64,000 bases of DNA from a virus: the IMG/VR virus record IMGVR_UViG_3300027541_000073, positions 25,993 to 89,992 of that record, one strand, 5' to 3'. Positions 27,020 through 58,100 of the stretch are shown one piece after another. A program made the position numbers and the translations under genes. Position 1 is the stretch's first letter; each line of letters starts with the position of its first letter. The notes beneath the pieces were generated by a model, which saw nothing but the letters and a program-made list of their open reading frames with translations, was not told the DNA's origin and ran no database searches.

Positions 27020-28729
27020 TTATGCTGGTGGAGCGGCTGGCGCGGGAGCGGCACCTGGTGCTGGCGCACCGCCTTCTGCTCCTGCTTCAGGTGCCATACC
27101 TTCGGGTGCTGGTGTTTCTCCTGCCATAGCACTAGCATCTGCGGCAATGCCCGTTGGGCTTACACCTGCTGTACGCAATTCTCCTGCGGCATCCATTGCG
27201 TTAGACTTGGCCATACCGCTTTCTTCTTTCCACAGACGTTCGTTTTCTGCTAAGTCTTCGTCTGTCATACCTAAGAAACGTTTTAGTGCAAACCGTTTAG
27301 CAATAAATGGCAATGCTACTACCTGTGCAAAAGTACTGATACGTTGATTGTCTAACTCTGCTTGACGATATGCGGCAAAGTTTTGTGGACTTTGGAAACG
27401 AATATCAAACAAACTAAAGTCAATGTTTACACCTTTGTTATACAAGAATAATTTAAATTCTGTATCAAATGTACTGATCATTAACGTTTGTAAACGCTCG
27501 CAATATTTGTTAAAACGTAGTTCTTGAATGTATGCTGTACCTACACGTCCATCATTAAATGCCGCTTGACTGTCATCTGCGCCTGTAGGCAAGTAACTGC
27601 TAGGAATACGTAGAGCTCGCATTAACTTGTTAGTAAAATACTTTAAGTCGTCGATTTCGCCCAGGTTAGTACCGCCCGGTAGCGTTTCAACTTTACTTCC
27701 ACGACCTTCTGCTGTCTGTGGAAAGAAGTAGTCTTCATTGATAGACAACGGATTGTAAGCACTATCAATAGCACTGCCACCGCCTGTACTACTAGGAATA
27801 CGTCTTTGATGAATCTCATTTTTAACTCTTTCAACAAAGCTCATGGCCAAGTGACTAGGCATATTGCCTACGTCAATGTAGAAAATTCTACGCTCTGGAG
27901 CACGTTGAATACGATAGATAATAATAGCATCTTCCAGTAATTCTTTCTGTTTGTAAACTTTAAAAACAGATTCTAACAGCGAATTACCAAAAGGATAATT
28001 GTTGTCTAAGCCTTCACTTAGACTAAGATGTACAACGTGTTTAGCATCAATAGCAAATTCATTTTGACTTTTGCTAAAACGTGTTCCTGACTGCTGAGGA
28101 TATGATCCTGTCATACCGCGAGCACCGCTGCCGCCTTGTGTATAAGCGGCACCACCAGGCTGTTGATTTTGTGTATTAGGATTAATCTGTGTTACAACTA
28201 AATCCTGTAAATTAATGTTTAAGTCGCGGATAACGTATTGTTCTGGCTTCTTGCCTTCGCTTTCGTTAACAATAATCTTTACAACTTTACCCGGATCAAC
28301 GTAATACCATTTTTGTGTTTCTGGATCGCGTACAAAGAATCCGTCGCCGTATTTGAACAAGTTACGTGCAATACGGAACATACGTGTATCAAGTTTTTGT
28401 AACTTAGTCCACTGTTGTAGGTATTCCTTTAAAATTTTAATTTCAGAATTTGTAGCACGATTTCTAAATTGTAATGTAAACGGTGTACCGTTTTCTTTAT
28501 TTTTCTGTGTGCAAAACTCTGCTAGAATGTCCAATGCGGCATTAACTTCGCTGTCCCAATCCATGGTGTCGTACTGCATATAACGCTCAACACGATTTGG
28601 ACTACCAGTGTAAACATCTGGAAGATAGGAACTATAGTTGGATCGTGCAGGACCAGGCTTTCCGCCTGCGCCGGATATCGGGCTAACGTTGCCTGTTGTT
28701 ACTGGAGAGAAATGTCTTTTCCAACTCAT
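27020..28729 (-). CDS. gp20: Portal vertex protein gp20
   Basis: 569 residues (T4 gp20 is 524), AGGAAT upstream. Dodecameric portal through which DNA is packaged and to which the tail joins. Recognised by YSSYLPDVYTGSPNRVERY, DWDSEVNAALDILAEFC, LFKYGDGFF, YYVDPGKVVKI, EGLDNNYPFGNSLLESVFKV with IIYRIQRAPERRIFYIDVG, and the PQTAEGRGSKVETLPGGTN loop followed by DLKYFTNKLMRALRIPSSYL. A Pro/Ala/Gly-rich C-terminal tail of about 45 residues is disordered. In the middle, a QPGGAAYTQGGSGARG loop (about residues 180-200) is an insertion of low complexity. Standard position before the core proteins. Confidence 0.96.
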   Translation of the reverse strand: MSWKRHFSPVTTGNVSPISGAGGKPGPARSNYSSYLPDVYTGSPNRVERYMQYDTMDWDSEVNAALDILAEFCTQKNKENGTPFTLQFRNRATNSEIKILKEYLQQWTKLQKLDTRMFRIARNLFKYGDGFFVRDPETQKWYYVDPGKVVKIIVNESEGKKPEQYVIRDLNINLQDLVVTQINPNTQNQQPGGAAYTQGGSGARGMTGSYPQQSGTRFSKSQNEFAIDAKHVVHLSLSEGLDNNYPFGNSLLESVFKVYKQKELLEDAIIIYRIQRAPERRIFYIDVGNMPSHLAMSFVERVKNEIHQRRIPSSTGGGSAIDSAYNPLSINEDYFFPQTAEGRGSKVETLPGGTNLGEIDDLKYFTNKLMRALRIPSSYLPTGADDSQAAFNDGRVGTAYIQELRFNKYCERLQTLMISTFDTEFKLFLYNKGVNIDFSLFDIRFQSPQNFAAYRQAELDNQRISTFAQVVALPFIAKRFALKRFLGMTDEDLAENERLWKEESGMAKSNAMDAAGELRTAGVSPTGIAADASAMAGETPAPEGMAPEAGAEGGAPAPGAAPAPAAPPA

Positions 28730-28741
28730 TATTAATTCCTA

Positions 28742-31111
28742 TTATGCACTATTATTTGAAGTTTGTCTAGTGTATTTGGCTGTCTTGCTCAAATAATCCA
28801 CAGCGTCTGATTGATGTGAGACTAATTGACTCATATTCATATTTAACTGATTTAACAGGTCTACCATCTCTTTGCTGGACGCATCGGATACTTTTACGTT
28901 TCCAGGTGCTCCTTCTTTTTGCTCAGACTTCATAGAGCTCTTGATGGTTTCGCTTAATTTATTAATGTTATTATTCAGTTGATCTAAATTAGTGTTATTC
29001 AAATCTTTAAATGCACTAGTTGTTGTAGTAATTTCTTCTCTAAGATTTTTTAATTTAATAACACCTGCATCGATACTTGAACCCACTGCCTCTGGGAACA
29101 TTAATTTTGAATAATCTACATCCTTTAATGCCGTTTTAAGTGCATTAACTTCTTGATTTAACTTTGCTACAGGTTCGGCAGCATTTGTCTCTGGAGGTTT
29201 TGGTGCATTTGCTTTTGGTATTTCTGCACCAGGTACTGTATTTTTAGTATTTTCCGTTTGTGCATTAGCGGCCGCATTTGTTTTTGTCTTTAAAAAGTCT
29301 GGAGTTAGAAAATCAACAACTTCATCTTTATAAATGATTAATCCTGCTGTTGTTGCTATTGCCCAGGCCCATGGATTCTTTATAGTGGAAACAATTTTTT
29401 CTAGTTTTCCGGCTTTTGCAACATCTTCTGCGGCTTCTGCGGCTGCTCCTGGCTTAACTGGTTCTCCTTTAGGAGTTTTAGGTTCACCACCTTTAGGTTC
29501 ACCGCCACCTTTTTTCATTTCTTCATATTTTTTATAATCCATGCCAGCGGCTTTTGCACCAGCATAACCTATTGCAGTACCTACACCAGCCTTAATAAGA
29601 GCATCTGCAATCTCTTTACCTAGTGCGGCTCCAAACAATACTGGAATTCTTGCGGCTGGATCTAACTTAGCAAATTTTTCAGCGGCTGCTTCTGCACCAC
29701 TTGCCGCCGATTTTAATCCAGTTGCGGTTAAATCTAGTACGCCACTTTCAATAAATGACTTCTTAAATGAATTTTGTACATTAGTTAATGTCTGATCTAA
29801 ACCTGCTACTGCTCTTGTTGGGTCTGTCTTAGATGCAGCCAGACGTTTTTCTTGTTCTTCCTTGGCCATTGCGGCTGCTTTTTGCGAGTCGCCCATGCCT
29901 TGTAATACTGCTTTACCTAACATTGGAGTCATTTGACCCATAGTTGCCATTGCGGCGGCTGTTCTTCTTTCGCCTTCGCTGATATTTTCGCTGGCTTTGG
30001 CGGCTTTACTAAATCCAGCGTTCATATCGTCGACAGCAGACTTAGATCCGTTAAAAATTTCTCGGCCCATTTTACTAGCATCAACGCCTGCACTTTGCAT
30101 TGTCAATGCAAATTGTCTTGCTTCAGCAGTTACAGCAACACCACCGCCAGCAATAATATCTTTAAAGCCTGCGGCCATTTTACCAGTTGGATCTAGTTGT
30201 TCTAACTGTTTAATTTTAGCATTAACTGCCGCCTGTTGGTCTGCATCTAATTTGCCTAATGCTAATTTCATTCTAGCATCACGTTGAGATGATTTATTGG
30301 CTTCATCTATCTGTTGTCTAGATAATCCTGTTGCCTTTGATAGTCTGTCTAGTTCTTCGTTATATTTTTCTTGACCTGCAACAATTTCATCAGTGCTCAT
30401 CTTTGACAAGCGACCGTTGCGTTGTTGTTGTTCCATGTAACTAGCATTATATGTTGCTAGTTCATCCATACTAAATCCAAGCGCGGCAAATTTTTGACCG
30501 CTCTGTGCCATAAACTTGCCTTGTGTTTCAGCAAACTTAGTAGCACCAGCAGTGGCAGATCCAAACGCCATAGCCAGCGATTGGCTGTTTTCTTTTACAG
30601 TTTTTCCAAAAATTTCTAAAGGAAGTCTTGCTTCACCTGCTGATAGTTGTGCTTGTAACAATGAATCACCTAAGTCAATACCAGATCCACTTAGTGTTCT
30701 AAAAATTTGTATTTGATCTTCTAATGTTCCGCCAAATTGCTGAACTACATCGCTAACGCCCTTGATGTTTGCGCCGGGCATTTGTGCCAGTACACCAGAA
30801 AAATCTTTAATTGTAGGAGTAGTATTTGAAAATGTTTTAGCAAATGAGTCTGCACCAAGAGATACAGCATCTCCTGCTAGTTTCATTCGTGCCTTATATT
30901 CTTTTTCAGTTTCAGCACCTTTTCGCATTTGCTCAGCCCGAGCATCATTGTCTCCTGCGCCACCGCCACCGCCGGGCGTGGCACCAGGTTTTCCGCCTGC
31001 AGGTATTCCGCTTTTATTAATTGCCGCAAGTATCTGTCTAAGAGTCGAGTCTTCGGCAGCGTTTTCTACAATAACTGTTCCTACTCCAGGAACTATGGCT
31101 TTTACTGACAT
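28742..31111 (-). CDS. Probable tail tape measure protein (gp29-like role)
   Basis: 789 residues, GGAAAA upstream of ATG 31111. Predominantly helical and Ala/Lys/Glu-rich, with low-complexity Gly/Pro linkers near residues 40-55 and 525-550. Two hydrophobic stretches are visible: IADALIKAGVGTAIGYAGAKA and PWAWAIATTAGLIIY, as often found in tape measure proteins that contact the host membrane. The C-terminus (SKEMVDLLNQLNMNMSQLVS, AKYTRQTSNNSA) resembles tape-measure ends. The gene is 74 bases from and divergent to the gp26-type gene whose -1 frameshift product resembles a tail chaperone pair, which supports the assignment. Not proven by alignment; the alternative is another internal head or tail protein. 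Confidence 0.65.
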   Translation of the reverse strand: MSVKAIVPGVGTVIVENAAEDSTLRQILAAINKSGIPAGGKPGATPGGGGGAGDNDARAEQMRKGAETEKEYKARMKLAGDAVSLGADSFAKTFSNTTPTIKDFSGVLAQMPGANIKGVSDVVQQFGGTLEDQIQIFRTLSGSGIDLGDSLLQAQLSAGEARLPLEIFGKTVKENSQSLAMAFGSATAGATKFAETQGKFMAQSGQKFAALGFSMDELATYNASYMEQQQRNGRLSKMSTDEIVAGQEKYNEELDRLSKATGLSRQQIDEANKSSQRDARMKLALGKLDADQQAAVNAKIKQLEQLDPTGKMAAGFKDIIAGGGVAVTAEARQFALTMQSAGVDASKMGREIFNGSKSAVDDMNAGFSKAAKASENISEGERRTAAAMATMGQMTPMLGKAVLQGMGDSQKAAAMAKEEQEKRLAASKTDPTRAVAGLDQTLTNVQNSFKKSFIESGVLDLTATGLKSAASGAEAAAEKFAKLDPAARIPVLFGAALGKEIADALIKAGVGTAIGYAGAKAAGMDYKKYEEMKKGGGEPKGGEPKTPKGEPVKPGAAAEAAEDVAKAGKLEKIVSTIKNPWAWAIATTAGLIIYKDEVVDFLTPDFLKTKTNAAANAQTENTKNTVPGAEIPKANAPKPPETNAAEPVAKLNQEVNALKTALKDVDYSKLMFPEAVGSSIDAGVIKLKNLREEITTTTSAFKDLNNTNLDQLNNNINKLSETIKSSMKSEQKEGAPGNVKVSDASSKEMVDLLNQLNMNMSQLVSHQSDAVDYLSKTAKYTRQTSNNSA

Positions 31112-31184: not shown

Positions 31185-32051
31185 ATGGAAAATCAAGTAG
31201 CAGTACCGCAAAACCCGTTGAAGAAGTACTTTAGACAACCGAAGCTCTATGTTCGTTTGCCTAGTTCTGGTAATTTTTATCCACCAGGCACGTTAGAACC
31301 TACACAAAATATGGAGTTTCCAGTTTATGCTATGACTGCTAGAGATGAAATTTCTATTAAAACACCAGACGCATTGTTAAATGGTCAAAGTACTGTTGAT
31401 GTTATTCAAAGTTGTATGCCTAATATTAAAAATGCCTGGGCAATTCCTAGTATTGATATTGATGCTATATTAATTGCTATTCGTATTGCAACATATGGCG
31501 AACAAATTGATGTAGATATTGCTATTCCAAACATATCAGAAACAAAAACGTATACTACTGACCTACGATTAGCGTTAGATAAACTGTTAGATGCTACATT
31601 TGATCCAGAAGTTCGAATTAATGATGAATTAACTGCATTTTTACGTCCATTATCCTATGAAGAATTTACTAAAAGTTCTTTAAAAAGTTTAGAAGAACAA
31701 CGAATTTTTACTATTGTTAACAGTCAAGAACTAACAGAAGAACAAAAGATTGCTCAATTTAATAAGAGTTTTAAAGCATTAACTGAAATTACCATGAGAT
31801 CAGTGGCCAATGGATTAGTCAAAGTTGTTACGCCTGAAGGCGAAGTAAGTGATCCAGCATTTATTAAAGAGTTTATCGATAATGCTGACAAAGAATTTTA
31901 TACTAAAATCATCGATCACTTGGAAAAACAACGCATTAAGTTTCAAATGCCGTCGTTTAAAATTCAAACTACAGCAGAAGAGCAAGCTCAAGGTGCTCCT
32001 GCTGAATTTGAAACTCCTATAGGACTAGACGCTTCAAATTTTTTCGCGTAA
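31185..32051 (+). CDS. gp26: gp26-type baseplate hub/tail assembly protein
   Basis: 288 residues: MENQVAVPQNPLKKYFRQPK, then VRLPSSGNFYPPGTLEPTQN, the conserved opening of the T4 gp26 (T4_baseplate) family, and a helical middle (SYEEFTKSSLKSLEEQRIFT). TTGGAGT upstream. In T4, gene 26 lies directly before 51 and 27-29 in the hub cluster. Here it ends in SNFFA at TAA 32051, but an out-of-frame coding region lacking a start codon overlaps this end and can be reached by a -1 slip (see the fusion entry). The main product is probably the short form, as for lambda gpG relative to gpGT. Confidence 0.85.
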   Translation: MENQVAVPQNPLKKYFRQPKLYVRLPSSGNFYPPGTLEPTQNMEFPVYAMTARDEISIKTPDALLNGQSTVDVIQSCMPNIKNAWAIPSIDIDAILIAIRIATYGEQIDVDIAIPNISETKTYTTDLRLALDKLLDATFDPEVRINDELTAFLRPLSYEEFTKSSLKSLEEQRIFTIVNSQELTEEQKIAQFNKSFKALTEITMRSVANGLVKVVTPEGEVSDPAFIKEFIDNADKEFYTKIIDHLEKQRIKFQMPSFKIQTTAEEQAQGAPAEFETPIGLDASNFFA

Positions 32052-32275
32052 AGCTCTTCAGCCTAACACTCGAAGACGCACTAAGAGTAGTTGAGGGGCT
32101 AGATAAAGAAGCAAAGTCCATAAGAACCGAATTGTTTAAATTGTGCTGGTATATGAGAGGTAGCATCACCATAGATGACGCATTTGCATTATCCTATGAA
32201 GATCGTGAAATCATATCGAATATTATCAAAGAGAATTTAGAAACTACTAAGAAATCAGGATTACCCTTTTTCTAA
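31185..32275 (+). CDS. gp26-gp51-like fusion made by -1 frameshift
   Basis: The frame ending at TAA 32275 encodes LFSLTLEDALRVVEGLDKEA..CWYMRGSITIDDAFALSYEDR..LETTKKSGLPFF. It is open only from 32012 and has no ATG, GTG or TTG until TTG 32132 and ATG 32153, too late for the conserved-looking start of the domain. It lies in the -1 frame of gp26. Two overlapping slippery heptamers, A-AAT-TTT and T-TTT-TTC, sit in the gp26 frame at 32036-32045, just before the gp26 stop. Either slip yields the same 363-residue protein (287 of gp26 plus 76). It occupies the place of T4 gene 51. Frameshifting is inferred from sequence, not measured. Confidence 0.75.
32036..32076 (+). promoter_or_regulatory. -1 ribosomal frameshift signal
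   Basis: Heptamers AAATTTT (32036-32042) and TTTTTTC (32039-32045), both in X-XXY-YYZ phase with gp26. The gp26 stop follows 3 bases later. About 10 bases downstream is a small stem TCTTC/GAAGA (32055-32059 with 32072-32076) with a 12-base loop that could act as a modest stimulator. Confidence 0.7.
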
Positions 32276-32718
32276 TACTTCAAGATTCACTGCGTTCATC
32301 TGTTCATCGCTTCGCTCGAACTATTTGTTTTATTTTAATTATAGAGCATTATTAAGTGCGAAGCACTTTAGCATTATCCAGATTGTTCAGTCACACTTCG
32401 CCCGCACAGGGCAAAGTTAAAAACATTATCCGAGTTGCACAATGTCACACAGCGTTAGAGCATTACAGTGGCGGTTGTCCGGTACCACGAGCTCCGTCTT
32501 ATCACAACGGCGGTAAACAAATATACGCTATCATACTTGCTTACGTGAGGTTTTTCTCCTCTCCTTGAGCCTTTTCTTCTTAAAACAGCAAAACCGCGGC
32601 AATTTGCGATCCTCGTCCTGTTAAGGATAGTTGCTGAGTACTCTTAACGGCAAGAGAATTCCGTCCCTGCGACCCGAGGTCCAGGTATAGAGCGCACGAA
32701 TTTAGCCTGCGCTAGCCA
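32276..32718. other. Non-coding, GC-richer, hairpin-rich region between convergent genes
   Basis: 443 bases with no convincing gene, flanked by the ends of the gp26 fusion (plus) and the GIY-YIG gene (minus). Clear hairpins: AAGTGC-GAA-GCACTT (32354-32368), GCCC-GCACA-GGGC extended by CTT/AAG (about 32396-32415), GTTAAG/CTTAAC (32620-32647), GACC-CGA-GGTC (32671-32681), AGCGCA/TGCGCT (32691-32713). The base composition from about 32396 on is noticeably richer in G and C than the coding DNA around it. I could not fold it into a tRNA, tmRNA or known ribozyme. Candidate structured RNA of the phage, or a remnant of a mobile intron given the adjacent homing-type nuclease. Confidence 0.5.
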
Positions 32719-33168
32719 TTAACCGTTTGATTTTGCCTGTGCTTGTTCTAATAAACGCTGTCTTAGTATATTTGATCCGCCTACTCTAACATTAATAATA
32801 CCGTTATAGTAGTCGTCAGTTTCTAAAACCCTACGTTCGAACTGCTCTCTTGCCTCTAGATAAGACATTTCTGCCTTGGATTTGCAAAAATAAAGTATTT
32901 CTCTTGTGAATTTTTCTGGACCTAGTGCGTGGACGTCTGCTTGTAATCTCTCAGATGAGCCCCAATATTCGCGCCAATCGCTTTCTACTGTGCTACGTCT
33001 TTTGAGTTTTTTGCCTTTGAGTGGTGGTTTTGTACGCTTAAACTGTGCTAGTTTTTTGCCTATATATTTCTGTCCAGATTGGTTGTTAGTGATGAGATAA
33101 ACAAAGCCTATAACGCCTTCGGGTATTTCTTCAACTAATACATTTTGATAGTGCCACGACATGCACAT
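32719..33168 (-). CDS. GIY-YIG family endonuclease (homing-type, free-standing)
   Basis: 149 residues (or 147 from the second Met). The GIY-YIG core is recognisable: GFVYLITN at 21-28 and QKYIGKK at 33-39, followed by PPLKGKKLKRRSTVESDWREYWGS, and then EAREQFERRVL with the likely metal-binding Glu and a C-terminal YYNGIINVRVGG. Single-domain architecture, as in Seg-like and other phage free-standing nucleases; it would nick or cut DNA and could promote its own spread. Lies at the 3' end of the recombination operon, 9 bases after the 75-residue gene, next to the structured non-coding region. No intron is evident in adjacent genes. Confidence 0.82.
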   Translation of the reverse strand: MCMSWHYQNVLVEEIPEGVIGFVYLITNNQSGQKYIGKKLAQFKRTKPPLKGKKLKRRSTVESDWREYWGSSERLQADVHALGPEKFTREILYFCKSKAEMSYLEAREQFERRVLETDDYYNGIINVRVGGSNILRQRLLEQAQAKSNG

Positions 33169-46105: not shown

Positions 46106-49100
46106 ATGGCATTTACTAAAGATCAAAAAGAACCAAGTCTGCCAATCGGTACAGATACAACTAGAAGCGCGGTTAATTTTTTACCTAGATATTTTAGAAC
46201 TAGTACCAATCAGAAATTTTTAAACGGAACATTAGATCAGTTAATTTCTGTTGGCAATGTTGATAAAATTAATGCGTATATTGGTAGAAAAAATAGCAAA
46301 GCCTATGTGCCTTCGGACAACTATGTTGATGAAATATCTGTAGAACGTTCTGCCTACCAACTTGAGCCAGCAATTATTGTCAAAGATAGTTTAGAGAATG
46401 TAACATTCTTCAGTGATTATAACGACTATATCAACCAACTTGTATATTTTAATTCTTCTGCGGTAGACCATAGCAAGATTAACAGTCAAGAGTTTTATAG
46501 TTGGAATCCTAATATAGATTGGGACAAATTTGTTAACTATAGAGAATATTACTGGCTACCAAAAGGTCCGCAGTCTATTGCAGTTAAAGGACAATCTCGT
46601 AGTATTATTAGCACATATACTGTGACTACTGTCAGCGATGTTGACAATATTGCCTATGTTTTCAGTCCAGACGGATTAACTCGCAACCCAAGTCTAAAAT
46701 TGTATAGAGGTCAAACTTATAAGTTTGATATTAATTGTCCAGGTAATGCAATCGCATTTAAGACAATCAGAGATATGGCCGATTCTTATATCTACACTGA
46801 TGGGGTTATCAGCGATACTCCTTATGTAGAAGTGGGAACTATTACTTTTACAGTTCCAGACGATGCACCAGATTTATTATATTACGTTAGTGCTAACAAT
46901 ATTAATACATCTGGATTCTTTAAAATTTATGATATTGCCGAGAATACATTTATCGATGTCGAAAAAGAAATACTAGGAAAGAAAACATATAATATTGACG
47001 GTACAACAGAGTTGTCCAACGGTATGAAAGTTTATTTTATAGGTAATGTTACTCCGGCGAAGTATGCTACAGACAACTGGTATGTTGAAGGTGTAGGTGA
47101 TAAAATTAGATTAATTGCAGAGTTTGATTTACAAACTCCATCATCTTTTGCCTTAGACAGCGACATCGAATTTGATACAGAAAACTTTGATACACAAGGT
47201 TTTGATGTTAATAGTAACTATCCTGCGGAAAAAGATTATATCACTATCAGCAGAGCAAGCAGAGATAGAAATCACTGGTCGAGATATAACCGCTGGTTCC
47301 ATCGTTCAGTCATAGAAGCCAGTGCAACATATAATAATCAACCTGTTGAAATAGATCAGACTGCTAGAGCTAAACGACCTATTATTGAATTTAAACCAGA
47401 CTTACAATTATGGAATTTTGGACGTCAGGCAAAGCGTAGCGTTGATTTAGTTGACTTGTATACTAAAGATGCGTTTTCGACTGTTGAAGGTAGTATAGGT
47501 TATAATATTGACGGTGTATTATTACTAGAAGGCATGCGTGTTCTGTTTGCCGCTGATACTGATGCCATTGTAAATGGTCGTATTTTTAAAATTGGATTTA
47601 TTACACACCTTGGTGTTAAGAGAATTACACTATTAGAAGAAACAGATACTACTCCTATTGACGGTGAAACTGTACTAGTTACAGACGGCGACAATTTTAA
47701 AGGAAAAATGTTCCACTATTCTAGTGGTGCGTGGGTAGAGAGTCAGGACAAAACAGCAGTTAATGTTGCACCATTGTTTGATGTAGTTGATGTAAACGCC
47801 ACAAGTTTTGGAGATAGAACAACTTATATTGGTTCTTCATTTATCGGATCTAAAGTTTTTAGTTACCAGCCAGGCGACACATATGATAATATTTTAACAC
47901 AAAATATTTCTTATAGAAACATTGGTAATATTGGAGATATTGTTTTTGACTTCAATTTACAAAAAGATTCATTTACCTATCAAGGCGAAGTTGAACTTAT
48001 CACACGAGTGCTTGACCGAGGGTATCTTCGAATTAATGATAGTCTTTCAGACTATAGACTTGTTAATGGATGGGTCAAATCTGAGTTTCAAACAAAACAA
48101 CCGGTTATACGACAAATCAATGTCCAGGCAGATTTGTTAAATTTATTCCCTATTGACGTCTATGCAAAGAGCGGAATGTTAGACGACTTAGATGTTAAGG
48201 TTTTTGTTAACAATAAGAAACGTACAGATTATGAAATTTACAGACAAAATAGTATTGCTTACATTCAGTTTACCGCAGATTTAACTGTAGACGATGTTGT
48301 AGTTATAGAAACAATGTCTTCTGCTACTAAATTAGATAACATCGGATATTATAAATTCCCAAGTAATCTTGAAAGCAACCCGCAAAATTTAAGTTTAGAA
48401 GATTTGACCTTAGGTCAAATTTCTAATCATTTAAAAACTATTTCAGAAAATTTTGTTAAGTTTGAAGGTAACATTCCAGGCATTAGTAATCTGCGCGACC
48501 TAGGAAACATATCAGGATATGGTACACAGATAGTTCAGCATTCTGGACCTTTAGCACCAATCATGTATAGTTTTACAAATAAAAACGTTAACATTATTAA
48601 GAGTTTGCGTTATGCCAGAGACGAATATTCTAAATTCAAACGTAATTTAATTAGAACTGCAACTACATATGGTTACGATGGTATAACTCGTACACATTTA
48701 GATTTGGTGCTTAAAGAAGTAACCAAAGATAAAACAGTCGAGTCTCCATTTTATCTAAGCGACATGGTTCCGTTTGGAGTTAATTTTGTCTATGAACAAG
48801 AAGTTATTGATAATTCCTTCACTGATTATCCACTGACATTCGATTTTAATTTAGACGAAGCAAGTTCTAAAGCAGTAATGGTATATGTCAACGATGATCT
48901 TTTACTGCACGGCAGAGATTACATTTTCGTCAATACAAGTTTTGTTAGAATATTATCTGCAATACAAACTGGCGATATATTAAAAATTTATCAATACGAT
49001 CAAACTGCGGGCTGTTGTGTTCCACCGACTCCTACTAAGTTAGGATTGTATCCATTGTTTGAACCAAAGATTTTTGTCGATAACACTTATGTTACTCCTA

Positions 49101-52100
49101 CAAAAGTTATACAAGGTCACGACGGTAGTATTACTGTTGCATTTTCAAAACCAGATGAGCCAAATGAATTTAGAGACGAGTTATTACTAGAATTAGAAAC
49201 ACGTATCTATAATAATATTAAAATTCGTTACAATCCAGAATTGTTTAATCTTGATACATTAATGACTGGATATTTTAGAAATGCCGATATTACTGTTGAC
49301 GAATTGAATTCTACACTAAGACAAGAGTTCTTAAACTGGACTAGTTTAATCAACGACGATTATACTAAACACAGTTTCTTTGATAGAAACGAGCCGTTTA
49401 CTTATAACTATAAGTCATTTGCTGACCCGCAAGGAAATCCGTTGCCAGGTTTCTGGAGAGGAATATACAAATATTTCTACGATACAGATCGTCCGCACAC
49501 ACATCCATGGGAGATGTTAGGATTCAGTATTAAACCAAAATGGTGGGAGACTACCTACGGTCCAGCACCTTATACTAAAGATAATTTATTACTATGGAAT
49601 GACCTAGCAGAAGGCCTTGTAAGAGCTCCGGGTCAGTTACCAACACGAAACAGTTTATATGCTAGACCTGAATTGTTAAAATATGTACCTGTTAATGCGT
49701 CAGGAGAATTAATTGACCCACTAACTGTTGGACTAGTTTCAGATTTTGTTTCAGTCTTTACAGAAAAAGAATTCACTTTTGGCGATCAAACACCTATTGA
49801 AACAGCGTGGAGACGTAGCAGTCATTACGCATTTTCTTTAATTACTGCACTTACTCTATTACGTCCTGCAAAAATGTTTGCTTTAGGATTTGATAGAATT
49901 CGCCAGTACAGAGATCAAACAGGACAAATTGTTTATAAACTTCCTACAGGTAACTTGAGATTTAATACCACAAATATGGTATTCCCAAGTACTGTTAAAG
50001 ACAGCACAAGAGTGTTTACCAGCGGACTAGTAAACTATTTGTCAGACTATGGTATTAGCAAATCGTTTGCAATACTTGACAATTTTAAATCAGACTTAAC
50101 TTCTTTACAAGTAAAAATTTCCAGCAAATTAGCCGGCTTTACTACTAAAGAAAAATTTAAATTAATTTTAGATAGTCGTAGTCCTTTGAATGAAGGCAAT
50201 GTATTCATTCCTCAGGAAAACTATAACATTATTTTAAACTCTAGCACACCAGTTACTACTATTAACTATAGCGGTGTAATTATTGAAAAAACAACCAGCG
50301 GCTTTGTTATTAAAGGTTACGATAAATCTATACCAGAATTTAAGTATAAAAAAGCTCTGGATACAGTATCGGACCCGATAATCAATGTGGGCGGAATCTC
50401 TGAAACTTATATTGACTGGAATTCAAATAAATTCTACAGCAAAGGTCAAATTGTTAAGACAGATCAAAACTATTTTAGAGTTACTGTAGCGCATACAAGT
50501 ACTACGGCATTTGAATCAAAGTATTTTGTTAAACTGCCATATCTACCAATTGTTGGCGGACGTCAGATTGTAATAAGAAGAAATTTTGAAAAATCTGTAA
50601 GCACATTACACTACGGCGCAGAATTAAGAACAGTACAAGAAGTCGTTGATTTCTTATTAGGTTACGGAAAATATCTAACAGATGCAGGTTTCACATTTGA
50701 ATATTTTAATCCTAATTTAAAAACAGTCACAGACTGGCAAACCAGTGCCAAAGAGTTTGCGTTTTGGACTACACAAAACTGGGCCGAAGGTTCGATTATT
50801 ACTGTAAGTCCTGCCGCAGAAGAATTGATTTACAGACAAGATTATGCTGTAGTTGACAGCATTTACGATCCTTTCTATGAATATAGCCTATTCAAACAAG
50901 ACGGCGTAGAATTAGAACCAAGTTTTACTAATAGCATTCGTGAAAATAATAGTTTTAGTCTGCGACCAAAAAATACAGCAGACGGTTTATATCATGCTAC
51001 ATTGAATCTTGTACAAAAAGAACACGTTTTAATTTTAGATGACACTACAATTTTTAATGACATTATCTACGATCAAGTACAGGGCTATAGACAAGAACGT
51101 ATTAAAGTAGTTGGATATAAAATTAGCGACTGGACAGGCGACTTTAGTATTCCAGGGTTTGTCTACGACCGTGCAGTTGTTTCAGAATGGACAGCATGGA
51201 AAGACTATGCCTTAGGTGAAACTGTAAAATACAAAGAATTTTATTATAGTGCCAGAACAAATGTTCCAGGTACAGAATTGTTTGACGACAATAATTGGTA
51301 CAGACTAGATGGAAGACCACAAAGTAAATTAATTCCTAACTGGGATTATCGTGCTACACAGTTTGAAGATTTTTATGATTTAGATACAGATAGTTTTGAT
51401 GTTGACCAACAAAAGTTTGCTCAACATTTAATCGGCTATCAAAAGCGCCAATACCTTGAGAATATTATTAATGATGATGTAAGTCAGTACAAGTTCTATC
51501 AAGGTATGATTCAAGAAAAGGGTACACAAAACAGTTTATCTAAATTGTTTGACGCACTAAACTATGCAAACACAGATAGTTTAGAATTCTTTGAAGAGTG
51601 GGCAATTCGCTTAGGACAATACGGTGCCAGCGGTGGCTACGAGGAAGTAGAATATATTCTTAATGAAGAAAAATTCTTAATTAACCCACAGCCAATTGAA
51701 TTAGTAAATGCAGTTCCGTTTGGAGTGAACGATTTTGTTTATAGAATTACTCAGGATCAAGTTTACTTAAAACCTGACGACTATACACACGAGCCGTTCC
51801 CAGTACTAGCATCTCAGAAAGAATATATTAGAACTGCGGGCTATGTTAACTATGAAGACGTTGACTACATTATTTCTTCTAAAGATGAATTCGCCAACTA
51901 CAATATTAAAAATCTTGTAGAAGGTACATATTTCTGGTTAGGATTTGATAACAGTTCTTGGAATGTTTATAGATTTACTAATTTCGCTAAGTCTGTTAAG
52001 AGTGTATCAGAAGGTACTAACTTAAGAATTACTCTTAATACTAAACTACCTGTAGATATAGAAGTTGGATCTTATATTGGAATTAATAATACTAATGCTT

Positions 52101-55100
52101 CGTTAGAAGGCATTAAACAAGTATTAGATACAGGCTTAAACTGGTTTGAAATAACCATGCCTGCTAATTTAGATACTGCGGCAATTGCAGAAATTAATTT
52201 ATTTTTAAACATTAATTTGTTTAAATTTACTCCACAACGACTATCGTCAATTAACGATTTAAATTCCTTGCCTGTTTCTGCTAAGAAAAATAATGAAATA
52301 GTATGGACAGACGGAGTCAACAATGCTTGGAGTGTCTGGAAGTTTGCTAAAACATACACTAGCACAAAAATCACTAGTGAAGAAAATTATTTTGGAAAAG
52401 TTATTGCGGTTGATAACACAGAAACAGTATTGGCAGCAACATCAACAAATGCAGTTTTGTTCTACAGCAGACCTACATCGACATTTGGATGGGCGTTCCA
52501 GGATTCTATTTTCCCATTATCGACAGAAACATTTACCGACACTAACGGAAGTTTCGGTGATAGTTTATGCTTTAATGCCGACGGATCTTACTTATTTGTA
52601 GGCGCACCGCGTTACGGTATTACATCTGAACCAGGTGCTCTACCAACAGATCCTCCAATCATTACAGAAGTGGATATTGGTTATGTGGCACAGTACACAA
52701 AAAATATCTACGGCAGTTACGAATTTACAAGAGTAATTCAAAGTGCTACACCAACACAGTTCCAATATTTTGGACAGAAGATACAGGTAAATGGAAATGT
52801 ATTATACATTGTTTCTAAAGGCAATGGATCTTCAGTTCCAGCAGCCGTGTCTGCGTATAACTTAACAACAAACACTTTCCTAGCAACACTAACTCTACCA
52901 ACAGGTATTAGTATAACTGACATAGATATTAGTTCGAGCAATATTGTAGCAATATCTAAAAATGACGAATCTGTTTTAGTTGTTCGTTTAGCAGGAACAG
53001 CCTTTACAACAGTACAAGAAATCAATGTTAGCGATTTTACATCACTAGAAGTTTTAGAAACAGGTAGTAATTTTGGCACATCTGTAGCAATTACAAAAGA
53101 TTCAACTTTTGTTGCTGTTGGTGTACCAGGGTATTCAGGCGTAGCATCTAATCAAGGAGCAGTTGCACTATTCAAATTAAATGCTTCAACATACGTTGCT
53201 GATGATTTTATTACAAGTCCGCTAAACCAAGACAGTGAAAAATTTGGATATAGAGTAAGATTTAATCTAGACAATGATAGATTAGTAATTTATAGTTACG
53301 GTGGTAGTCAAACAATTGAAACAATAATTGACTCCGGCGAAACAACATTTGATTTAAATGTAACTACATTTATCGAAGAACAAGAATTTACTGGCAGTGT
53401 TCGTGTTTATGAAAAATACGACGCCAAGTTCTTAATCGGCGACGAATTAGAACCAACAGCAGTTTCTGGAATTAACTACGGCGATGCGTTTGTTGTAGCA
53501 AGAAAAATTTATATTAACGATCAAACATCGATTAACGGATCATTCCATGAGTTTTCTGGAAGCACTAAATCTTGGACTAAGTTCCGCGAACCGGAACCTA
53601 GTGTTAACTTATCTAAGATTAAATCATTGTTCTTATATAATACAAGAACAAACAGCGTAGTTGCCAACTTAGATTTTATCGATCCAATTACAGGAAAGAT
53701 TTTAGGAATCGCTGAACAAGAATTAACATTCAAAACATACTACGATCCAGCAATATATACAGTTGGTGTAGAATCTGTAGTAGTAGATTTACTAATGGGA
53801 TGGACAACACCTCATGTTGGTAAATTATGGTGGGATCTCAGCACTATTAAATTTGCTAATCCCCTACAAGGATCTATTGTATATAAAGCCAACACTTGGA
53901 ATAATGTCTACAATGATTCCACTGTGGATATCTACGAATGGGTAGAATCTGAATACACACCGAGCGAATGGGATTCGTTAGCAGATACTGAAACTGGACT
54001 AGCATTAGGTATTAGCGGAACATCTAAGTACGGCGACCTTGCATACAGTATTAAACAAAAATATGATACTATAAGCAAAACATTTACCAACACTTATTAT
54101 TTCTGGGTTAAAAATAAAACTACAGTACCTGACGTTACCTTTAGAAAAACGTCTGCCAGCGATGTTGCAAATTTAATATCCAATCCTAAAGGTCAGGGCA
54201 TTCAGTATGCTACTTTATTAGGTAAAAATCAATTTGCATTAGTGAACTGCAAAGGATTAATCACAGGCAAAGATGTTGCACTAAATGTTCGTTACTGGAC
54301 AGTGAATAATACTGAAAACAATATTCATGCACATTATCAGTTATTAGCAGAAGGAAACACTAATAAAAAACTTAACAAGTATGTTGAACAGAAATGGTTT
54401 GACAGTTTAATCGGTTACGATATCAACGGCGCAGAAGTGCCAGATCCTAGATTGCCTGCTAAATTGAAATACGGTATTCTAAACAAACCTCGTCAAGGTA
54501 TGTTTGTTAACAGACTTGAAGCTCTAAAACAATTTATAGAGCGTGTTAACTCTGTATTAATACAACGTGCAATTATTGACGACTTTGATTTTACAGCATT
54601 AAACTCTAAAGAAGAACCTCCGACTGAATTATCAGGAAAGTACGATATTGCAATCGACAGTCAAAGTCAAATACGTTTTGTTGGCTCTACAGGATTTATT
54701 CAAGCCACTGCTGTTCCGGTAGTAGAAGCAGGAAAGATTGTACGTGTTGTAGTTACAAATCCAGGCCGTGGATATAAAATTGCTCCAGAAATTATAGTTA
54801 ATGGTGCAGGCACTGGCGTAAAATTAACAGCAAAGATTAACACTATTGGCGAAGTTACTGGTGTAACAGTTGATAACTTTGGCCGAGATTATTTAGATTC
54901 TACTACATTGTATATTAGACCATTTACAATTTTAGTCAACAATGATGAAACAGCGGCTAATAAATGGAGTTTATACATTTGGGATAGTGTCAAAGGCGAC
55001 TGGTTCAGATCAAAAACTCAAATTTATGATGTAACCAAGCATTGGGATTATGCCGACTGGTATGCCGATGGCTACAGCGCATTTACTAAAGTTGACCATT

Positions 55101-58100
55101 TAGTTGACTTCTCATATGAAATGAGTTTCATAGATATTGCTGTAGGCGATTTAGTAAAAATTAAAAATGAAAAATCTGGTGGTTGGATTCTTTTAGAAAG
55201 AATTAATACACTAGTTACAGATAACATTTCTTTAAATTACACAACAGTAGGTCGTCAAAACGGAACAATCCAATTCAATAGTAATTTGTACAAGTTTACA
55301 AATAGTAATATTGGATTTGATAGTTTTACCTATGATGGCGATGTATACGACGACGAACCAAAAGAAGAATTAAGAATTATTCTCGATGTCATTAAAAATA
55401 ATTTATTAATAGACGATTTAGAAGTAGAGTATAATAAGTTATTCTTTGCAAGTCTGCGTTACGTATTCTCAGAACAAACATTTGTTGATTGGGCATTTAA
55501 GACTTCGTTCGTTAAGAGTCAACACAACCTTGGCGAATTAAAACAAAAAGTTAATTATAAAAATGACAATCTTGCTAGTTACGAAGAATACATTAATGAA
55601 GTAAAACCTTACAGAACTAAAGTTAGAGAATTTATCAGCAATTACACAGCAACTGATAATACATATACAGGAACTACAGACTTTGACCTTCCAGCACGTT
55701 ATGATACTGAAGAAGGAAAAATTCTTCCGTTTGATGTAAAAGTCAATAATTCTGTAATTACATATAACTCATCTGCAATATTAAATGCACCATACAGTGA
55801 TTGGTTAGATCATGCTGGATATCGTGTTACAGAAATTGTTGTTGTTGACGGTGGCTCAGGATACCAAGCCGCACCTGCTGTTGAAGTAGTTGGTGTGTGC
55901 AAAACTAAAGCCACTGCTAAAGCGTATATTTCACAAGGATCAGTAACAAAGATTGCAGTAGAAACTAAAGGAGAAGGTTACCTAACTACACCTACTATAG
56001 TTATTAGCGGATCAGTTGGCGCAAGCGGAGTAACAGCCAAGGCTACAGCAATTCTTGGAGAAGGCGTTACAAGAACAAACACCATTGGTGTTAAATTTGA
56101 CAGAATTATTCCGGAGTATCAAGTAAGTTCTATTACAATGTCGCAGACATTCGATGGTACAGGATCTAGAACATTGTTCCAGTTAAACTGGCCTATTGAT
56201 ATTAGAACAAACAAGACTGCGGTAACAGTATCTAACGAAGAATTATTGTCTAGTGATTTTACAGTTTATAATAAGAAAGATACTTCGTTAGGATATACAC
56301 GTTATATTGGTATATTAGAGTTATCTACTGCGGCAGAAGTTGGCAGTTCTAATATTACTGTAACTTATACTAAAGATATAAGACTTCTTACAGCCGCAGA
56401 TAGAATTCAATATTACTATAGTCCAATAACAGGACAGATTGGTAAAGACCTAGGACAGTTAATGTCTGGAGTTGACTACGGCGGCGTTGAAATTACAGGG
56501 CTAGGATTTGAAATAAGTTCTGGTTGGGACGGACTTCCATGGTTTACTGCTGGCTGGGACGACTTCGATGAAGATTATACAGACTTTTTAGTTGTATCAG
56601 ATGGTACAACACGTTCTTATAATCTGCCATATATTCCTGCAGATGGAGAACAGATTAACGTTTATATTAATGGTGTAAGAATTGATGACATTAATTATGA
56701 CGTTTACACCAGTGCCGAAACTGCATATAATACCGCAGCCGCATTATTAGAAGTTTATACTGCTGAAGAGATTGCTCTACAAGCAGATAAAGACGCTAAA
56801 GAAATAACAGTTAATTCTCTAACACAAGAGCTTATTGATACACAGGCAGTTATTGCTGACTTACAAGCACAGTTAGAAATTACCTCCCCAAGCGATCCTT
56901 TATACTTTGCTTTACAAACTACATTGGCAGAAAATCAAGCACAGGAAACACAGTTAATTTCAGACTTGACCATTGCCCAAGGCGAACTAGACGATGCAGA
57001 AGCATTACTAACAGCCAAACAAGTACAAGTGGCTAACAAAACTCTTGATGTTGCCGCAAAGTTAGCAACATTAAATGCAACCGATGAAATTACAAATCCA
57101 GATGCACAGATGCAGACATTTGTAGGAGACGGAAGCACTGATACTCCTATAGTCATTCCTGCATACGTAGATGTAAACAGCGGAGATACTATTATCTTCC
57201 GTAAGAGTACCAGCGATGGTAGTTTTAGACCAAACCAGCAATATTTAGACTCTGAAATCAGCGGCGGAGATTTTACATATACTACTGCCCGAGGCATTCG
57301 TGCAGAAGACATCAATCTTGACGGCGACAATTTTGTAACACCAACTAACAGCCATGCACCGGAAGAAGTAGTTACGGGACAGGTTGTAGACTCTGTAGCA
57401 ATTACAGTCTACCATACTGTAGAAGACGGTACACCTATTATTGTCACAAGACATTATATAACAACAGAGCCAGAAAACGAGTTCTTAATTGGACAGCGTC
57501 CAAACAGCACTCAAGCGGCAGTTGTTAAATTAAACGGATTAATTAAAAAGCAAGATGTAGATTATACACTAAATTACGCTATGCAAAAAGTTGTGTTCCC
57601 AACTAACTTGCCTGTGGGCAGTGAAGTTGTGATTACTTCTATGAGCAAAAACGGTACAAGCATTCTTGATTCCGATTCATTTACTGGCGATGGTGTTTCT
57701 GTAGATTTTGTAACAGTAGCACGTTGGGATGGAGATTATTCTGCACTAGTTACTGTTAACGGTGTACCAGCCACAGTAACAACATTTGTAACAGATAATA
57801 CTTACAGCGAAGTTGGAAACATTGGAATTAGATTTGCTACAGCACCAGTCAATACGGCAATTATCGACTACACGATTATTGGTACAGCATTAAACACAGT
57901 AAGTCGTGTTTCAACAGAAACTGTTGTTTATGACGGCACAAGTCAGGTGTATAGTTTAACAAATACACCGGCCAACTTACGTCCGTTTGATAATAACGTA
58001 TTAGTTGAATATGCTGGAAGAATTTTACGTCCGGCAGATACTGTTTATTTTGATGTCGTAGGAACAGTTCGTACTTACACAGTAAGCACAGTTGACTATG

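Follow-up and report, generated by a model that had tools for sequence, protein, structure and literature searches.

The window, a 64,000-nucleotide stretch of viral DNA that comprises bases 25993-89992 of an 89,992-base IMG/VR virus record, carries a plus-strand gene ending in AAT TTT TTC GCG TAA and, at -1 relative to it, an open frame that continues beyond its stop codon (Table 1). The protein of this frame-0 gene belongs to the T4 gp26 family by its match to the PF12322 profile (4.4e-8, 33.5 bits, against a curated cut-off of 24.5), and it also matches phrog_150, annotated 'baseplate hub' (3.5e-11). The 89,992-base record, possibly itself a fragment, has no other gene that matches PF12322. 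The first-pass annotation had placed the locus next to a tape-measure-like gene. A gene of 789 codons does adjoin it, though on the opposite strand, and family (profile) searches with its product returned nothing of weight. This neighbour is syntenic with a gene described as 'virion structural / tape-measure-like', for which the RaK2 record carries the note 'similar to Enterococcus phage phiFL4A gp48 tail tape measure protein'; by synteny and this one annotation note it is a candidate tape-measure-like gene.

Table 1. Features of the proposed chaperone locus and its neighbours (positions in the window).
Feature	Position	Strand	Basis or remark
Portal protein, syntenic marker	27020-28729	-	phrog_213, 4.5e-113
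Neighbour gene, 789 aa, candidate tape-measure-like	28742-31111	-	synteny and RaK2 note
Frame-0 gene, proposed tail assembly chaperone short form (TAC-N), gp26 family	31185-32051	+	288 aa and stop
Open -1 frame, stop to stop	32012-32275	+	87 codons, ORF reading
Overlapping second possible heptamer A-AAT-TTT, in phase, not conserved	32036-32042	+	19/57 non-redundant relatives
Slippery heptamer T-TTT-TTC, -1 phase	32039-32045	+	57/57 non-redundant relatives
-1 domain after the slip, proposed TAC-C, predicted helical	32045-32275	+	76 codons and stop
Spacer, 6 nt, with frame-0 stop TAA (32049-32051)	32046-32051	+	sequence
Putative stimulatory stem, 5' arm AGCTCTTCAGC	32052-32062	+	starts 6 nt past the heptamer
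Putative stimulatory stem, 3' arm GTTGAGGGGCT	32090-32100	+	11 pairs with the 5' arm, 27-nt loop

Relatives of the locus were collected from named phages and from viral contigs. In a tblastn search the gp26-like protein matched 61 phage records, none at 60% identity or more. Phosso (35.7%) and Atu_ph07 (35.2%), both giant phages, matched best, ahead of PA5oct-like, 121Q-like and RaK2-like phages. The label 'T4-like phage' given earlier to this DNA needs correcting in that giant myoviruses are its closest named relatives. From the 61, 1275 and 970 records found in all, 25 named records were chosen for spread, with T4 included by accession. A scan of viral contigs supplied the best 80 of 125 matching stretches (42-100% identity), and a second scan, for cyanophage-like loci, the best 80 of 591 matches. 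Automatic parsing of the first set yielded 79 loci; the remaining one, L055, in which the match began before the upstream stop, also carries the heptamer. Collapsing loci of more than 90% nucleotide identity reduced the 79 to 57, and exclusion of L045, which is cut by a contig end, left 56 for the stem and length counts, of which 36 and 35 rows entered the protein alignments of the -1 domain. Absence of the heptamer was never a ground for excluding a locus. The window is represented in these statistics by L001, which encodes the same frame-0 protein as the window and has the same junction.

Two in-phase slip sites, A-AAT-TTT and T-TTT-TTC, had been proposed to produce one 363-residue fusion; translation confirms both positions and the identical product of either slip. 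As a conserved site only the second stands: T-TTT-TTC is present in 57/57 non-redundant loci, and A-AAT-TTT, found in 19/57, was rejected as the slip site. T-TTT-TTC in the -1 phase occurs once among the window's 24 ORFs of 150 aa or longer, 3 codons from the end of frame 0. It is present in all of the best 80 of 125 related viral loci, and its occurrence in every non-redundant locus compares with 8/208 FF pairs in the other ORFs of the same loci (at least 150 codons), a conservation far beyond chance. The run of T is exactly six, followed by CG, in 57/57 loci. The codon preceding the FF pair varies in its amino acid and has a synonymous identity of 1.00 against 0.51 expected, the highest among the columns ranked. 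The frame-0 stop begins 3 nt past the heptamer in 47/57 loci and 12 nt past it in the other 10; in those 10, where the stop lies 9 nt further downstream, the heptamer and the -1 frame are unchanged.

The site extends well beyond the window's own group. In 20/25 named records the gp26 gene has an in-phase T-TTT-TT(C/T/G) close to its end, with an open -1 frame behind it: 12 giant phages (Phosso, Atu_ph07, Paride, Hallingskeid, XacN1, Vibrio 2.275.O, RaK2, 121Q, BF, GAP32, XaC1 and CM1, with a seventh T in the run of XacN1 and CM1), the cyanophages Sf-FS3, S-RIM8 and S-H34, and the Vibrio phages VH7D and V07, Aeromonas phage Aswh_1 and Rhizobium phages IC12 and RHph_Y68. The last of these (L182 3687-3869) has T-TTT-TTG in place of T-TTT-TTC, and its record treats the -1 frame as a gene of its own, a 'baseplate hub assembly catalyst'. 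Among the cyanophage-like viral loci (best 80 of 591), all 52 distinct junctions carry T-TTT-TTC, and an ATG is mostly found a few codons past the slip. In many of these loci (L098-L177) a stretch GGAGGG stands some 10 nt before the heptamer, resembling a Shine-Dalgarno stimulator; a Shine-Dalgarno-like match of at least 4 bases within 25 nt upstream occurs in 74/80 of them, a raw count that includes redundant loci and has no null. The site is absent from 5/25 named records: T4, Acinetobacter phage Stupor, PhiSH19 (Ackermannviridae), Vibrio phage K369 and Pseudomonas phage Cygsa01. The last three (L181 3010-3813, L179 2983-3723 and L097 3072-3809, respectively) have a gp26 gene and a downstream -1 frame and no XXXYYYZ heptamer; they have either an alternative route to a long form or lost that form.

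The -1 frame evolves as a protein under purifying selection. Its median pN/pS is 0.47, versus 0.92 and 1.32 in the other two frames (1538 pairs), the median dN/dS of the -1 domain is 0.36 (405 pairs with dS <1.5), and the domain measures 76 codons in 56/56 untruncated loci. The encoded peptide opens at the slip point with an RxRLL consensus, of which the first R is invariant (36 rows), and mostly ends in PFF. By profile comparison the -1 domains of the window's group and of the named giant phages are clearly related (E 9.7e-20). AlphaFold2 predicts the domain to be helical (pLDDT 91.1); a comparison of this model with BFVD gave nothing at E<=0.001, the names found without significance including a tape measure chaperone (Moogle, E 1.5) and a tail assembly chaperone (BonaeVitae, E 3.3). 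The first-pass annotation had described a 76-codon frame lacking ATG, GTG and TTG in its first 40 codons. This holds for the 87-codon open frame, in which the earliest such codon is a TTG at codon 41; the same TTG is codon 30 of the 76 read after the slip, so that in this part only the first 29 codons lack one.

Could the -1 frame instead be an independent gene, expressed by coupled re-initiation or from a non-standard start, with no fusion made? Codons 1-28 of the -1 domain include an ATG in 23/57 relatives, a separate small ORF is annotated in some giant-phage, cyanophage and Rhizobium phage records, and PhiSH19, K369 and Cygsa01 do without the heptamer. However, ATG is absent from those 28 codons in 34/57 loci, 14/57, including L001, offer neither ATG, GTG nor TTG there, the conservation of the protein begins at the slip codon itself, and an independent gene would leave unexplained both the synonymous constraint and the stem described below. 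Such a gene is therefore very unlikely here. The junctions of relatives, whose comparison had been suggested as a check on the frameshift, keep both the heptamer and the coding bias of the -1 frame (57/57; pN/pS 0.47). Normal start codons and heptamer-less junctions in homologues, named at the same time as evidence against a frameshift, do occur in part: the 23/57 loci with an early ATG nevertheless retain the heptamer, and its absence is seen in three distant named phages and in 0/57 loci of the window's own group.

A further element of a programmed frameshift is a stem-loop downstream of the slip site. Synonymous sites are conserved beyond expectation at -1 codons 2-5 and 23-26 (indices 1-4 and 22-25), and this was the reason to search for a stem. 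With helix starts searched at 3-9 nt past the heptamer, 50/56 loci have an unbroken helix of 10 or more pairs, and 6/56 have none. The 5' arm of the helix is fixed, whereas its 3' arm occupies three main registers, defined by the sum of the arm positions: 79 in 35 loci, 59 or 60 in 15 and 41 in 5, with another register in 1. The longest helix averages 12.0 pairs, compared with 6.2 after synonymous-codon shuffling of the -1 frame, the shuffles giving p<=0.05 in 48/56 loci and p<=0.01 in 34/56. Likewise, the 85 nt past the heptamer have a mean folding z of -3.54, while control windows of the same genes average -0.25; the z of these 85 nt falls below -3 in 35/56 loci. The registers were defined on the same sequences as those counted, and the shuffles ignore relatedness. 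Joint folding of all 56 loci produced no consensus structure, probably on account of the mixed registers, and the evidence for the stem is accordingly drawn from single-sequence folds and register-wise counts.

Covariation was tested on registers 79, 59 and 60, with the 5 loci of register 41 left outside. One alignment (A1) held 36 rows, namely the 35 of register 79 together with L041, whose longest run lies elsewhere; two others, A2 (6 rows, the window replacing L001) and A3 (8 rows), held 14 of the 15 rows of register 59/60, L018 being excluded. In register 79 (36 sequences) 90.2% of cells pair, the covariation score of 0.200 was reached in 0/500 shuffles, and both the paired and the doubly changed cells exceed the shuffles; pairs changed on both sides (196/500) and pair types (59/500) are not above them. 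In register 59 (8 sequences) 93.2% of cells pair, with a score of 0.464 (0/500) and doubly changed pairs at 1/500. Covariation thus supports the stem in two alignments. In register 60, that of the window's clade (6 sequences), all 66/66 cells pair and covariation is not significant (51/500 shuffles as high), and the hairpin of L001 is modest (folding z -1.06, codon-shuffle p 0.033). Given the helices and covariation across the group versus the weak signal in the window's clade, the group as a whole gives good support for a conserved stem-loop, which in the window itself is plausible. Cyanophage-like loci also have a short hairpin just downstream of the heptamer, of 7-12 pairs and in one register in 17/18 non-redundant loci (18 rows: covariation score 0.102, 3/500 shuffles as high; doubly changed pairs 482/500). 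In the enterobacterial giant phages Hallingskeid, RaK2, BF, GAP32 and XaC1, the same search did not find helices of more than 7 pairs.

The position of the stem also bears on whether the ribosome is what slips. RNA polymerase slippage on the six T could add a base and yield the same fusion: the run is conserved in 57/57 loci, and an inserted U would give the same -1 product. However, a run of six T is short for polymerase slippage, its length is exactly six, followed by CG, in 57/57 loci and reaches seven in two distant phages, and the phase of the heptamer together with a stem about 6 nt downstream fits ribosomal slippage. Polymerase slippage is accordingly a shade less probable even than an independent gene. 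That an ancestral gene was broken by a sequencing error or a pseudogene frameshift has nothing in its favour beyond the frame break itself and is already refuted by the identical break at the heptamer in 80/80 loci and 20/25 named records, which leaves this explanation with practically no probability.

Very probably, then, the locus is a single tail-assembly-chaperone gene that uses -1 programmed ribosomal frameshifting to produce a short form (TAC-N) and a long form (TAC-NC). From the sequence we infer the slippage, its efficiency, its stimulation by the stem and the chaperone role as follows. The majority of ribosomes would translate the frame-0 gene to its end and terminate, releasing the short, gp26-like chaperone. 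A minority would slip one base back on T-TTT-TTC, assisted by the hairpin that begins 6 nt downstream; these ribosomes would pass the TAA in the spacer and append 76 residues, giving the long form of 363 aa. Both forms would then coat the tape measure protein and hand it over during tail assembly, the part played in lambda by gpG and gpGT. In this regard, one record describes gp26 and gp51 from a T4-like phage of Acinetobacter as assembly chaperones for the tape measure protein.

The AlphaFold2 model of the short form (pLDDT 83.7) matches predicted gp26-family proteins in BFVD, with a best E of 3.2e-22, and a Foldseek search against the PDB gave nothing at E<=0.001. VIA-align superposes the model weakly on the HK97 tail assembly chaperone gp13 (2ob9_A; Z 5.8, rmsd 4.8, 102/107 residues), which ranks 44 amid unrelated matches; the model is therefore compatible with a gp13-like TAC-N fold, but weakly so. 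Among the weaker BFVD matches of the gp26 fold (E 2.6e-7 to 3.5e-3) are uncharacterised proteins of 507-686 aa from Erwinia phages Special G and phiEaH2 and Ralstonia phages RSF1 and RP12, which are phiKZ-like giant phages; these proteins may be unrecognised tail chaperones.

In lambda, gpG and gpGT are a short and a long chaperone made from one gene by -1 slippage near its 3' end, and the tape measure gene follows this gene immediately, on the same strand. The proposed arrangement in the window resembles it in layout, with one gene, two chaperone forms and a -1 slip near the 3' end, and differs in that the neighbouring candidate tape-measure-like gene is on the opposite strand. The first-pass annotation had likened the locus to the gpG/gpGT strategy, and the conserved heptamer, the coding bias and unvarying length of the -1 domain and the downstream stem-loop all back this comparison (for the lambda frameshift, see Xu et al., 2004, as cited in PMC10885494).

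T4 differs from both. Its gp26 (208 aa) and gp51 (249 aa) each match PF12322 and share 20% identity (E 2e-6), which makes them paralogues, gp51 being a full gp26 paralogue with an extra C-terminal tail. Genes 26 and 51 stand back to back on opposite strands, and the short and long forms are therefore encoded separately, by two divergent genes where the window would obtain both from one; correspondingly, neither T4 gene has an in-phase XXXYYYZ heptamer near its end, in contrast to the T-TTT-TTC of the window gene. Since T4 splits the two forms between paralogous genes, the -1 frame is comparable at best with the tail of gp51. The cyanophage-type -1 peptides match this tail at E 1.1e-4 (probability 57%), and a combined giant-phage -1 profile matches a cyanophage-plus-T4 tail profile at E 2.2e-5 (probability 76%). 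Narrower comparisons did not succeed: the profile of the window's group reaches E 0.068 against the cyanophage-type profile alone and E 0.0028 against T4 gp51 alone, where the alignment falls outside the tail. Homology between the -1 domain and the gp51 tail is thus suggestive rather than firm. The earlier description of the downstream frame as gp51-like is thus only partly upheld: it may apply to the tail, by profile comparison, and fails for gp51 as a whole, which is a continuous gene of its own, whereas the long form here requires a slip.

Frameshifting at this gene is reportedly conserved in several T4-like groups, with T4 itself using genes 26 and 51, and the groups treated by Vladimirov, Gautam and Davidson are said to encode a gp26-family TAC-N followed by a TAC-C in the -1 frame. 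Those groups would share the TAC-N/TAC-C layout and the poly-T site with the window, whose lineage has the giant phages Phosso and Atu_ph07, at 35-36% identity, as its nearest named relatives. As this work is already in print (Vladimirov et al., 2022, via citing papers), a frameshifted T4-like tail chaperone is a known kind of gene. PMC12846349 makes the same frameshift argument for Vandenendeviridae and cites Vladimirov, Gautam and Davidson 2022 (Virology 566:9-15) for poly-T slippery sites in 'TAC-N genes of T4-like phages'; PMC12671138 likewise cites Vladimirov et al. (2022). The literature search, the scope of which did not include the full text of Vladimirov et al. (2022), found no paper on a giant-phage slip site or on stem registers. 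The hairpin with its registers and the breadth among giant phages are what the present analysis adds, having turned up in none of the literature searched.

The distribution of these elements invites an evolutionary reading, according to which a gp26-family cassette, consisting of six T, a C, a short stop-bearing spacer and a hairpin, would be ancestral to cyanophages, Schizotequatroviruses and many giant phages. The giant-phage hairpin would have switched partner repeatedly, keeping its 5' arm fixed while the 3' arm moved among sums 79, 59/60 and 41 within the -1 coding frame, and T4 would later have duplicated the gene into genes 26 and 51, replacing the whole device. The chances of this reading are evenly balanced, given that covariation in the window's clade is not significant and that the covariation tests covered registers 79, 59 and 60. 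More practically, a giant-phage 'baseplate hub' gene with a start-less or mis-started small ORF behind it is indicated to be one frameshifted chaperone gene, so the long form is worth considering when such genomes are annotated. In addition, the locus offers a defined RNA signal suited to reporter testing and a comparative basis for asking how T4 arrived at two genes.

Two further features of the window lie outside the chaperone locus. An open reading frame of 4694 aa (46106-60190, plus strand), with Pfam matches that are sub-threshold only, perhaps encodes a giant structural or fibre protein. Between the -1 frame and an endonuclease-like gene (32719-33168), the gap holds a minus-strand stretch (32583-32717) that strongly matches the Rfam family RF01718, Polynucleobacter-1 RNA (119.3 bits, E 3.6e-27), for which the literature search gave one paper, PMC2864571. 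RF01718 is also found in 6/11 related loci scanned (L011, L012, L013, L026, L031 and L048), and Polynucleobacter-1 RNA therefore occurs in these phages.
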